49,541 nucleotides of DNA from Candidatus Omnitrophota bacterium (GTDB taxonomy: Bacteria; Omnitrophota; Omnitrophia; Omnitrophales; Aquincolibacteriaceae), in NCBI GenBank assembly GCA_030698625.1, contig JAUYMS010000040.1:85499-135039 (forward strand). Reading direction: 5' to 3'. Each line of letters opens with the position of its first letter. The stretch's first letter is position 1. This document shows positions 28,157 through 33,863 of this stretch, in pieces. The notes below the pieces were generated by a model. The model was not told the DNA's origin. It saw nothing but the letters and a program-made list of their open reading frames with translations, and made no database searches. Position numbers and translations under genes: made by a program.

Positions 28157-29145
28157 GGAACTTCGACCTGATCGAAGATCTTCTTCACGATGTCGTCAGA
28201 CGTCATTTCTTCGGCTTCAGCCTCATAGGTCACCAACACTCGGTGCCGAAGCACATCCATGCCAATCTGTTTTACGTCATCGGGGGTCACATAACCGCGG
28301 CCGCAGATAAAAGCGTGCGCCTTTGCGGCCATTGTTAACATGATGCTGGCGCGCGGAGACGCGCCGTAGGAAATGAGAGGACGGATCTCTTCGAGGCGAT
28401 ACTGTTCAGGGTTGCGCGTTGCAAAGACAAGGTCCAGGATATAATCCTTAACCTTTTCATCAATATAAATCTGATGCATCAACTCGCGCAGCTTGAGAAG
28501 CTTCACGGGGTCGAGGACAGGCCGCACATCGATCTCCTTACCAGTCGTCATTCGCTCCAGTATCTCACGCTCCTCTTTCTTGCTCGGGTAGCGCACAATC
28601 AGTTTAAGCATGAATCGGTCAACCTGCGCTTCGGGCAACGGATAGGTTCCTTCCTGTTCGATCGGGTTCTGTGTCGCCAAGACCAGGAAAGGCTTCGGGA
28701 GAGGATACGTCTTATCGCCGATCGTGACCTGCCGCTCCTGCATGGCTTCGAGAAGCGCGCTCTGCACCTTGGAAGGAGCACGGTTGATCTCGTCAGCAAG
28801 GATGATGTTAGTAAATACCGGGCCTTGCTTAACCGTAAACGTGCCGTCTTTCGGATTATAGACCAGCGTTCCAATCACATCAGCCGGCAGCAGATCCGGC
28901 GTAAACTGAATTCTCTTAAAATCTGTATCCACCGCCTTCGAGAGCGTTCTCACAGACAGGGTCTTGGCCAGACCGGGCACTCCCTCGATCAGGATATGCC
29001 CGTCGGCCATCAGTGCGATGAGGAGGCGATCAAGCAAGTATTGTTGTCCTACGATCACCTTCCCCATCTCCCTTAAAAGAACCTGCAATATAGCGCTTTC
29101 GTCTTTTACGCGCGCACTCACTTCCTTAATCGAAGTCTCCATCAT
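28153..29145 (-). CDS. moxR: MoxR-family AAA+ ATPase
   Basis: 330 residues. Walker A is GVPGLAKT near residue 56, Walker B is IILADEINRAP, and sensor 1 is in LATQNPIEQEGTYPLPEAQ, the strongly conserved MoxR block. The C-terminal lid includes GASPRASIML (sensor 2 region) and DDVKQIGMDVLRHRV. MoxR proteins are chaperone-like ATPases that help assemble or activate metal-using or VWA-containing complexes; here the likely clients are the DUF58 and Bat proteins encoded directly downstream. The ATG overlaps the stop of the preceding BatD-like gene as ATGA. Confidence 0.95.
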   Translation of the reverse strand: MMETSIKEVSARVKDESAILQVLLREMGKVIVGQQYLLDRLLIALMADGHILIEGVPGLAKTLSVRTLSKAVDTDFKRIQFTPDLLPADVIGTLVYNPKDGTFTVKQGPVFTNIILADEINRAPSKVQSALLEAMQERQVTIGDKTYPLPKPFLVLATQNPIEQEGTYPLPEAQVDRFMLKLIVRYPSKKEEREILERMTTGKEIDVRPVLDPVKLLKLRELMHQIYIDEKVKDYILDLVFATRNPEQYRLEEIRPLISYGASPRASIMLTMAAKAHAFICGRGYVTPDDVKQIGMDVLRHRVLVTYEAEAEEMTSDDIVKKIFDQVEVP

Positions 29146-30020: not shown

Positions 30021-31982
30021 TTAGGCTTTCTTCTCTGTCTTTTCCTTCTTCTCTTTCTTCTCCGTTTTTTCCTTATTCTCTTCATTCACGACTTCAAAAT
30101 CGGCGTCCACGACGTCGGAGCCTGAGTCAGGCTTGCCTTCCTGCGCTCCCTGCGGCGCTGCTCCCTGGGACTTCTTGGCCGCCTCTTCATACATCTTCTG
30201 AGCCAAAGTATGCGACGAGGCTGTTAGCTTCTCGGTCGCTTCTTTGATCTTTTCAACCAGATCCGTACCAAGGGCCTCCTTCGCTTCCTTCAGCGCCTCT
30301 TCCACGCGTTTCTTCTCATCCTCCGAAATTTTATCCCCGTGTTCCGAGAGCGTTTTTTCGGTGCTGTACACCAGGGTATCAAGTTGGTTCTTGGCCGTCA
30401 CGAATTCATGTTTCTTCTTGTCATCCGCAGCATGAGATTCCGCTTCTTTAACCAACTTTTCTACTTCGTCCTTGGAAAGACCGGAAGATGATTCAATGCG
30501 AATTTTCTGTTCCTTACCTGTCCCAAGATCCTTGGCAGAAACATGTACTATCCCGTTCGCGTCAATATCAAAAGTCACTTCAACTTGAGGAACTCCCCGC
30601 GGAGCGGAAGGAATACCCTCCAGATTGAAAAGTCCGAGCACGCGGTTATCGCCTGACATTTCCCGTTCACCTTGCAAAACTTTCACTGTAACCGCTGTCT
30701 GATTATCTGCCGCCGTCGAAAATATTTCCGACTTCTTGCTCGGAATCGTTGTATTTCTTTCGATGAGCTTCGTCATCACGCCTCCGAGCGTTTCGATGCC
30801 CAAAGACAAGGGCGTGACATCCAGCAGGAGGACATCCTTCACGTCACCTTTTAATACTCCCCCCTGAATCGCCGCGCCAACCGCAACGACTTCGTCGGGA
30901 TTGACGCCCTGATGCGGATCTTTGCCAAACAGTTTGCGCACACGTTCGATGACAGCCGGCATCCGCGTCTGTCCGCCGACCATAATGACCTCATCGATGT
31001 CTGACGGCTTAATTCCCGCGTCTCGTAGCGCATTTTCACACGGTTTCACCGTGCGCTCGACCAGTTCGTCCACGAGCTGTTCGAGTTTCGCCCTCGAGAG
31101 ATTAATCAATAGATGCTTCGGACCCGAGGCGTCCGCAGTTACGAACGGTAAGTTAATTTCCGTACTCTGCGAAGTTGAAAGTTCGCATTTAGCCTTTTCC
31201 GCCGCCTCTTTTAGACGCTGCAATGCCATGCGGTCTTTGGACAGGTCAATGCCGTCTGTCTTTTTAAACTCGGAGGCAAGCCACTGGATAACCTTTTGGT
31301 CGAAGTCGTCGCCGCCAAGATGGGTATCACCATTGGTCGCTTTTACTTCGAAAACGCCCTCGCCAATTTCCAGGATAGAAACGTCAAATGTTCCACCGCC
31401 AAGGTCATAGACTGCGATCGTCTCGTCTTTCTTCTTATCGAGACCATAGGCAAGTGATGCCGCCGTTGGCTCGTTGATGATACGAAGGACCTCAAGGCCC
31501 GCGATCTGACCGGCGTCTTTTGTCGCCTGCCGTTGGGAGTCGTTAAAATATGCTGGCACTGTAATGACCGCTTGAGTGACCTTTTCACCGAGATAGGCTT
31601 CGGCATCGTTCTTAAGCTTTTGTAGGACCATCGCTGAAATTTCAGGCGGATTAAAATCACGGTTCTGCTGTTCAACATGAATCGCAGCCTCACCTGACTT
31701 ACCCTTATTGATCTTGAAGGGAACGAGCTCGCGCTCGTGCATAGCTTCATCGAAACGCCGACCTATGAATCGCTTCGCGCTAAAAATGGTGTTCTCCGGG
31801 TTCGTGATGGCCTGCCGCTTTGCCGCCTGCCCTACAAGACGATCCCCGTTTTTGGCAAAAGCAACCACGGAGGGCGTAGTCCTATTTCCTTCGGCATTGG
31901 CAATAACTTTTGCCTCGCCGCCTTCCATAACTGCCATACAAGAGTTTGTTGTCCCCAGATCAATTCCGATTACTTTTCCCAT
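30021..31982 (-). CDS. dnaK: Chaperone DnaK (Hsp70)
   Basis: 653 residues. The nucleotide-binding domain opens [20 protein letters not shown] and contains [27 protein letters not shown] and [10 protein letters not shown]. The substrate-binding domain starts around [17 protein letters not shown], followed by the helical lid. It is the main ATP-dependent folding chaperone, working with DnaJ and GrpE, which are not encoded in the window. The C-terminal tail after [10 protein letters not shown] is unusual: a Lys/Glu repeat ([16 protein letters not shown]) instead of the usual short acidic end. GGAG lies nine bases upstream of the ATG. No CIRCE element is seen upstream. Confidence 0.97.
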
Positions 31983-32053
31983 GATAAGTATCTCCTTTTT
32001 TAGGTGCGCATTAAGACGTCAGCATGATTAAATACAATTCACATGCCATCCCT

Positions 32054-32082: not shown

Positions 32083-32157
32083 GGTATTGTATTAGCTTAT
32101 GGAATCATCAGGATATGCATAAGAGGGCTAATTTATAGCATTGTGCCATCCTGACAC

Positions 32158-32172
32158 GGCACACTGTGTGCC
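32158..32172. repeat. Perfect 15-base palindrome
   Basis: GGCACACTGTGTGCC: two seven-base arms around a single T, flanked by CCTG on the left and CAGG on the right, which could extend the stem with a bulge. It lies in the 31983-32495 gap upstream of dnaK, beyond the predicted promoter. There is no T-run on either strand, so it is not a standard terminator. It could be a protein-binding site or part of the larger inverted-repeat block next to it. Confidence 0.6.
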
Positions 32173-32193
32173 AGGAGACACACCCCAGCTTGC

Positions 32194-32336
32194 GCGAGGC
32201 GAAAACAAGTCTGTCCGAAACGCTTCGGGTTTCTCGGCCCATCTTGCCCATCAAAGTCTTCCGAAAACGGAGACTTTGATACTCGCTGATACGGCCGAAG
32301 AAATCCTCCGCATGTTTCTGACAGCCTTGTTTTCAC
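32194..32336. repeat. Long imperfect inverted repeat (about 70-base arms)
   Basis: The left arm (about 32194-32263) and right arm (about 32268-32336) are imperfect reverse complements around the loop AAAA (32264-32267). The inner stem ATCAAAGTCTTCCG / CGGAGACTTTGAT matches with one bulged T. The outer stem contains GAAAACAAG pairing with CTTGTTTTC, CTGTC with GACAG and CGGCC with GGCCG. No convincing gene is present here: the open frames crossing it are short and contain the repeat on both sides. It could be an intergenic mobile-type repeat or a structured RNA. Confidence 0.75.
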
Positions 32337-32358
32337 CTCTCCGGTTGTTGGGGGCTTG

Positions 32359-32475
32359 GGTATAACGAAGAACGGGCAGGGAATTCTCTGGAAAAACAAT
32401 TAGCGCTTCTTGCGGAGACGAGGTGATAAATTTTTGGGGGAGTGTTTCCTGACCGTTCCGCAAGACCGTTATACC
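32359..32475. repeat. Second inverted repeat with 9-base terminal arms
   Basis: The ends are GGTATAACG (32359-32367) and CGTTATACC (32467-32475), perfect reverse complements. Pairing continues inward imperfectly: AACGG (32371-32375) with CCGTT (32453-32457), then CAGG with CCTG, and an A-run with a T-run. The span is 117 bases, adjoining the longer hairpin to its left and ending 20 bases before the stop of the response-regulator gene. It might serve as a bulky transcription end for the trp/two-component operon or be a miniature repeat element; sequence alone does not decide. Confidence 0.65.
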
Positions 32476-32495
32476 TTTAGGAAACCGGAGAAAGA

Positions 32496-33863
32496 CTACT
32501 TAAGGTCGTACTCGTCGATTTTGCGGTAAAGGGTGCGGCGGGATATGCCAAGTTTCTTGGCTGCCTGCGACTTATTACCACGGGCATCGTCCAATTTCGT
32601 ACGGATCAACTCGCGCTCCATGTCCTGGATGCTCGCGTTCCCGCCAATCGCCGCACCTGCGCCTACAGCTGCGCTCACGCCCAAAGACCGGATGTCGGCG
32701 GGCACATGACTCCACTCAATCCGATTCTCTCGCGCAAGCACCACAATGCGCTCCATAATATTGCGCAGTTCACGCACATTGCCCGGCCACGAATAATCCC
32801 GCAGCGCCTGCATCGCCTCCGAACTGACTCCTTCAATTTTCTTTCCGTTGGCCGAGGCAAAATGCTTCACAAAGTAATGTGCAAGGGCGGCAATATCCTC
32901 GCGCCTATCACGCAACGGCGGGATGTGAACGTAAATGACATTAATACGATAGTACAGGTCTTCGCGAAAGCGCCCCGCCCGCGTCTCCTGAGCCAAGCTC
33001 TTGTTTGTTGCGCAGACCAAGCGAACATTCACTTTGATCGTCTTAGTGCCTCCAACGCGCTCCAATTCGCCTTCCTGAAGCACCCGCAACAACTTGACTT
33101 GCATCTCAGGTGAAATTTCCCCGACCTCGTCGAGAAAAAGGGTTCCCCTGTCGGCCCTTTCGAAACGGCCGATGCGTCTCTCTGTAGCTCCCGTAAAAGC
33201 TCCCTTTTCGTGACCGAATAGCTCACTTGCCAAGAGTGTTTCCGTCAGAGATGCACAGTGGACTGCCACAAACGGCTGCAAAGCCCGAGGGCTCCGAGCA
33301 TGAATACGATGAGCTATGAGCTCTTTGCCGGTACCGCTTTCGCCTTCGATTAAGACCGCGGCTTGCGACAAGGCCACCTGATCAACCGTTTTCAGAACCT
33401 CGGTCATGACTGAGGATTCAGCCAGGATCTCACCCTTTTCAAACTTTTGGCTGAACAAGGCCTGCTTTAACTCACGGTTCTCTTCCTCCAGACTCCGGCT
33501 AGTGAGCGCTTTCTTGATAAGGAATTCAACCTCTTCGAGATTGATCGGCTTTGTCAGATAGTAAAAGGCGCCCTTCTTCATCGCCTTGACGGCATCCTCC
33601 ACAGAACCGTATGCAGTCAGAAGCAGGACTCCCATATCAGGATTATCGGCCCTTATCTTTTCGAGGAGCCCGACACCGTCCAATCCGGGCATGCGGATAT
33701 CGGCAATCACCAAATCCGGTTTCTCTTTCTTATAGATCTCCCAACCGGCGACCCCGTCCTCGGCCGTAAGCACCTCATAATCCAACCCCTCGAGAAAGCG
33801 CTGCAAGCCCTCCCGTGTGTTTTTCTCATCTTCAACAATGAGTAGCGTGGCAGAAAGTGACAT
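32496..33863 (-). CDS. Sigma-54-dependent response regulator (NtrC family)
   Basis: 455 residues in three parts. The receiver domain (1-120) has the phospho-acceptor Asp55 in VIADIRMPG. The AAA+ sigma-54 activator domain (about 140-375) has Walker A GESGTGKE and the sigma-54 contact loop GAFTGA. The C-terminal Fis-type helix-turn-helix is NKSQAAKKLGISRRTLYRK. It activates sigma-54 promoters when phosphorylated, presumably by the kinase whose gene ends 1 base upstream. No sigma-54 promoter was recognised in the window, so targets are unknown. It is the last gene before the inverted-repeat gap. Confidence 0.95.
   Translation of the reverse strand: MSLSATLLIVEDEKNTREGLQRFLEGLDYEVLTAEDGVAGWEIYKKEKPDLVIADIRMPGLDGVGLLEKIRADNPDMGVLLLTAYGSVEDAVKAMKKGAFYYLTKPINLEEVEFLIKKALTSRSLEEENRELKQALFSQKFEKGEILAESSVMTEVLKTVDQVALSQAAVLIEGESGTGKELIAHRIHARSPRALQPFVAVHCASLTETLLASELFGHEKGAFTGATERRIGRFERADRGTLFLDEVGEISPEMQVKLLRVLQEGELERVGGTKTIKVNVRLVCATNKSLAQETRAGRFREDLYYRINVIYVHIPPLRDRREDIAALAHYFVKHFASANGKKIEGVSSEAMQALRDYSWPGNVRELRNIMERIVVLARENRIEWSHVPADIRSLGVSAAVGAGAAIGGNASIQDMERELIRTKLDDARGNKSQAAKKLGISRRTLYRKIDEYDLK

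Follow-up and report, generated by a model that had tools for sequence, protein, structure and literature searches.

A long hairpin upstream of dnaK in a Candidatus Omnitrophota genome is one copy of a palindromic intergenic repeat

Short, non-coding repeats with inverted ends, a strong stem-loop and many intergenic copies, some of which reach into gene ends, are known from bacteria as the MITE-like families ERIC/RU-1, YPAL/RU-2, NEMIS, RUP and Nezha (PMC3733652, PMC2759123). TA ends and TA duplications have been reported for the enterobacterial members of this group (PMC2759123). REPs are 20-40 bp long, carry a GTAG or CGTC tag and are often present in very many copies; the REP/BIME sequences associated with RAYT are likewise palindromic and intergenic, and combine mosaic arrays and a preference for gene ends with a lack of target duplications (PMC3733652, PMC2817692). 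The Rickettsia palindromic elements (RPEs) are palindromes of about 100-150 nt confined to one lineage (PMC3733652). The repeat described here, for which our literature search found no earlier description in Omnitrophota, resembles the MITE-like families in size, coding content, inverted ends, folding, copy number and contact with gene ends, REP/BIME sequences in its arrays, location and undetected target duplications, and RPEs in palindrome length and restriction to a single lineage.

Hairpin A and the composite element

The window, that is, the whole stretch of 49,541 nucleotides that was analysed, contains a long hairpin with an AAAA loop, hereafter hairpin A, that spans positions 32194-32339 with the tip CCG-AAAA-CGG. 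The preliminary description had placed its start correctly and its end at 32336, three nucleotides short of the 3′ arm. Among the inverted repeats reported for the window, the best is formed by the outer arms (26 nt, 88% complementary). The RNA fold of 32180-32350, which includes short flanks, reaches −77 kcal/mol (z = −9.4, equalled by 0 of 200 shuffles), and hairpin A folded as single-stranded DNA gives z = −7.7. When energies were computed for 150-nt segments over the whole stretch, hairpin A ranked lowest on the plus strand (−66.2) and second on the minus strand, 0.4 kcal behind position 28921; its earlier designation as the strongest structure of the window is thus essentially right, and the fold of the element is very stable on both strands. 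No intrinsic-terminator-like site, that is, a G+C-rich stem followed by a T run, was detected on either strand between 31950 and 32520, in agreement with the initial view that the structure is not a terminator. Searching Rfam 15 with the hairpin returned only sub-threshold chance matches, with nothing near a gathering score. Open frames cross the palindrome on both strands (e.g. 32133-32399 on the minus strand) and were not taken as genes.

Table 1. Features of the palindromic element and of its surroundings in the window.
Feature	Positions	Strand	Basis or remarks
dnaK, downstream neighbour	30021..31982	−	HSP70
Sigma-54-like promoter of dnaK, TGGCATG-N4-TTG	32034..32048	−	Outside the element, intact; present in the gaps of four relatives
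Whole palindromic element (modules A and B, flanking R2)	32160..32480, ends approximate	+	blastn against other copies; gap length compared with relatives
Degenerate left R2 copy, GTGTGCCAGGAGACACACCCC; consensus about GGACGGCCAGGAAACACTCCTCC	32166..32186	+	Compared by eye with L003, L005 and L006
Hairpin A	32194..32339	+	Outer stem formed by repeat R1 and its complement R1′; fold, copy search, alignment
5′ outer arm (R1) of hairpin A	32196..32221	+	Inverted-repeat search
AAAA loop of hairpin A	32264..32267	+	Sequence and fold
3′ outer arm (R1′) of hairpin A	32314..32339	+	Inverted-repeat search
R2 arm of module B, GAACGGGCAGGGAATTCTC	32370..32388	+	Comparison of B copies
5′ half of module B core	32390..32439	+	Alignment with 14 other B copies
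R2′ arm closing module B	32439..32460	+	Comparison of B copies
Sigma-54-dependent response regulator, upstream neighbour	32496..33863	−	Sigma54_activat and Response_reg domains

The hairpin, initially taken for the entire feature, belongs to a larger unit of approximately 32160-32480 that includes a second, partly deleted module (module B, 32370-32460); comparison with the other copies by blastn showed that 32140-32480 (C33:117638-117978) is repeated. The full element, whose ends are known only approximately, is a nested foldback of about 400-460 nt with the organization R1-R2-[A: R1...R1′]-[B: R2...R2′]-R1′, in which the terminal repeat R1 is about GAGGTGAAAACNAGTCTGTCCGAAACGCT and the second repeat R2 about AAGGACGGCCAGGAAACACTCCTCC. 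Intact composites are found at C21:121131-121564 (434 nt), C48:81769-82228 and C41:47346-47800. In the window, the 3′ half of the module B core is gone, through a deletion of roughly 40-50 nt that apparently occurred between short TTTTGG-type repeats. Hairpin A also occurs by itself, as does B without A; at C50:202.6 kb A is inverted relative to B, at C48:113 kb an array carries B twice, at C26:17.1 kb A lacks its core, and in L013 (C43:111352) A is nested within a different palindromic unit. The L013 unit belongs to another foldback family, whose inverted ends are about 75 nt long (AAGAGGTATTCTCCGCCCGGAGAAATTCTTCG...); related flanks occur in L015 and L017. In the B module of L003 (C26:70.4-70.6 kb), the tip of hairpin B is swapped for an unrelated palindrome, ACCATGCACTTTCGTTGAAAGTGCATGGT, and L047 carries a third version.

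Copies in the host genome and insertion before dnaK

The host assembly amounts to 3.52 Mb in 50 contigs and is 95% complete. Using 32160-32360 as query, we found about 20 places with 81-91% identity, and hairpin A proved to be present as 18 complete and 3 partial copies. A covariance model derived from these complete copies recovered all 18 and two truncated ones, with no other complete copy. Module B, which lies just downstream of A, has about 17 copies. The hairpin is one of about two dozen intergenic repeat copies in one genome, and the copy search proposed beforehand as a test thus bears out the initial suggestion of an intergenic repeat family. Several contigs (C37, C13, C43, C28 and C8) end inside or beside an element, as expected given that repeats break assemblies. 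We considered whether the assembly might mix element-bearing and element-free organisms, which the G+C content of the contigs does not suggest.

The locus in the window is a clear case of lineage-specific insertion between the gene of a sigma-54 activator and a conserved sigma-54-like dnaK promoter. The gap between the response regulator and dnaK measures 516 nt here versus 203-210 nt in four relatives that lack the element (G022, G021, G024 and G023), which represent three genera of the same family, so that the empty sites come from other genera. Since synteny is kept and these shorter gaps hold no element, we conclude that the element was inserted in this lineage. A TGGCATG-N4-TTG motif precedes dnaK in all five gaps; the element sits between this motif and the stop codon of the regulator gene, which is about 16 nt away. 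The motif is similar to a sigma-54 promoter, in keeping with the Sigma54_activat domain that the adjacent regulator carries. The conserved motif next to an activator gene suggests that, in this family, a two-component system acting through sigma-54 may control dnaK. Within the DNA examined, dnaK was recognised after the response regulator in the four relatives and was not recognised downstream of it in the other relatives.

No convincing match to hairpin A was found by blastn in 96 relatives, nor by the covariance model with strict filters in 46 other genomes of the order. Of 284 other genomes of the phylum, 3 gave weak matches to module B (L220, L221 and L222), none of them convincing, and those in L221 and L222 were rejected as lying in coding DNA. 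A GTDB-wide pattern scan yielded one hit, in Photobacterium, which we judged from its sequence to be a chance match in coding DNA, and an IMG/VR pattern scan and searches of phages and plasmids yielded none. The lack of any convincing match in relatives, order or phylum indicates a recent and local expansion. A conserved orthologous position, which a structured RNA would be expected to occupy, was not found in the four response regulator-dnaK gaps or in any of the relatives searched.

Covariation, gene ends and mode of spread

Covariation was measured on an alignment of the 18 complete A copies, the columns of which have a mean identity of 91%. In the named stem of A, 94.3% of cells are paired, and double-sided compensatory changes occur in 29 cells of 12 pairs, compared to 6.9 and 4.6 in shuffles, none of 500 shuffles reaching the observed numbers; sliding the partner by 1-3 columns as a control gave 3-10 cells. 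The independent events are fewer than the cells since several double changes are common to subgroups of copies (L005/L012/L016 and L013/L014/L017). The outer 27-bp (R1) stem contains 11 of the 12 double-changed pairs and the inner stems, which hardly vary, contain none. This distribution is predicted both by selection on the fold and by palindrome correction, in which template switching or arm-to-arm conversion during replication transfers a change in one arm to its partner and so generates covariation independently of any fold selection. We regard palindrome correction as a credible, though not the favoured, source of the signal: the bias toward the outer stem, the changes common to subgroups of copies, and the B tips of L003 and L047, where other perfect palindromes have replaced the usual sequence, speak for it. 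Correction should however erase the AT bulge, which is invariant in 18 of 18 A copies, and the other internal loops, which persist; this objection is not decisive with copies that are 91% identical. The invariant bulge speaks for a particular imperfect hairpin being recognised, although the copies are too similar to decide. The alternative of a single conserved structured RNA, left open initially, is not borne out by a sequence that is multi-copy, absent from relatives and found in either orientation, yet its stem does carry compensatory changes, nearly all in the outer stem, which palindrome correction would also be expected to produce. Arms that covary in this way show that a functional RNA should not be presumed from covariation when a palindrome is multi-copy.

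Genes were called on 1.25 Mb using a simple, crude codon-usage caller, by which about 93% of the genome is coding. The copies are intergenic, with at most some bases of overlap with called gene ends. Most sit directly behind stop codons, and 12 of 23 element clusters are no more than 40 nt away from one. Convergent gaps account for 7 of 15 element-bearing neighbour pairs versus 55 of 847 others (P = 3e-5; P = 0.013 with only gaps of at least 60 nt kept in the tandem and divergent background), and in such gaps the elements occupy the space nearly from stop to stop. Both orientations of hairpin A are seen with respect to the gene upstream. This placement is what insertion and purifying selection would leave in a genome of which about 93% is called as coding, and alone it is no proof of function.

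Giant frames of more than 20 kb are reported to be common in Omnitrophota (PMC10066038), and uninterrupted frames in the host genome reach 14,250 codons. Of 20 genes longer than 3000 aa, 5 are followed by an element within 200 nt, versus 20 of 1423 others (P = 1.3e-5); on element-bearing contigs alone the counts are 5 of 16 versus 20 of 1080 (P = 1.5e-5). We treat this association as a lead and not a result because the first cases were already known when the test was made, and because the 2.18 of 3.52 Mb tested were selected in part for the elements they contain. Should the association prove real, it would open a route to studying how bacteria cope with transcripts of 30-43 kb. There is a slim chance that the element has been co-opted as a 3′-end module of very long transcripts, its foldback RNA protecting 3′ ends or blocking colliding transcription downstream of giant genes (9,600-14,250 aa) and in convergent gaps, in which case a mobile repeat would have become part of giant-gene expression.

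The giant frames themselves number 20 (3,500-14,250 codons) in these 2.18 Mb of the host genome (G000), and include C48:4890-47642 (L116-L118), C21:84373-121125, C43:128289-163223, C28:6329-37411, C13:38333-69244 and 15 others. Nearly all of the 11 N-termini inspected combine a signal-peptide-like start with a motif like 'GKTVI.IQDAH...AQ.NI'; in the first 1000 aa of the largest frame, Pfam gives only a weak HATPase_c-like stretch.

We consider it probable that the element is a lineage-specific, non-autonomous, non-coding palindromic (MITE/BIME-like) repeat that is tolerated behind genes, with the hairpin as its module A. The hairpin would be recognised, probably as folded single-stranded DNA, by a putative protein acting in trans, possibly a single-strand transposase, and the element would spread as a non-autonomous mobile unit without target duplication, its insertions persisting where they are least harmful, behind genes. 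Once the element is transcribed, from either strand, its stable stem could protect 3′ ends or hinder read-through, and no function need be assumed. That the repeats are instead kept as functional 3′-end modules, whose RNA hairpins stabilise mRNA 3′ ends or block read-through at convergent or giant genes, with selection on the RNA stem producing the compensatory changes, is unlikely in our view, and may hold besides a mobile origin. The preserved stem, the copies at stop codons and in convergent gaps, the frequency behind giant genes and the stability of the fold on both strands are consistent with such a role. Against it stand the use of both orientations relative to the gene, the lack of a terminator-like T tract, the position of the window copy, with its broken B module, between a gene and the promoter of the next, and the fact that purifying selection would leave the same placement.

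The label MITE-like is appropriate in that the composites, at about 400-460 nt, are short (below about 600 bp), non-coding, terminated by R1/R1′ inverted repeats and dispersed in many copies, and it falls short in target-site duplications and in a transposon sharing the ends. Flanks of 14 copies, whose ends are approximate, have 36 matched bases versus 35.7 expected, and among all R1-like sites within 3 mismatches listed in the 95%-complete assembly, no pair brackets a transposase or a gene-sized insert. These two negative results make it improbable that the element is a classical MITE, that is, an element that shares its terminal inverted repeats with a DDE-transposase insertion sequence and is related to it through internal deletion, however well its size, ends, copy number and lack of coding sequence would fit. 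Two Y1_Tnp genes in the host genome, together with mosaic arrays and the absence of detectable duplications, recall BIMEs, and raise the question of REP/BIME elements spread by the RAYT of the host. This origin is also very unlikely given that the copies are few and the palindromes greatly exceed REPs in length. The RAYT-like gene (L072, C33:42703-43038) was rejected as the source of the cognate transposase because it is bracketed by a different palindrome, GTCAAGTCTCGACTTGAC; the second Y1_Tnp is not flanked by the element's repeat, and no A/B similarity was found near either gene. The GTCAAGTCTCGACTTGAC palindromes form a REP family unrelated to the element, one of which lies directly beside element copy L008, in its downstream flank. 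A chance or decayed structure without wider meaning, which only the partly deleted B module of the window copy might suggest, is ruled out for practical purposes by the z-score of the fold and the 18 complete copies.

Comparison with described repeats

On these findings the hairpin represents a new family within a well-known class of mobile repeats; it is neither a terminator nor a unique RNA gene. RPEs stand out because they insert in frame within genes, whereas the copies described here lie between genes. In contrast to the enterobacterial MITE-like repeats, no duplication was found, and two hairpins are combined in one nested unit. The difference from REP/BIME sequences lies in hairpins of about 145 nt present in some 20 copies, in a host RAYT that has another cognate palindrome, and in the element ends, where no REP-type conserved tag was seen by eye. 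The element thus adds an apparently undescribed repeat family to a little-studied lineage.
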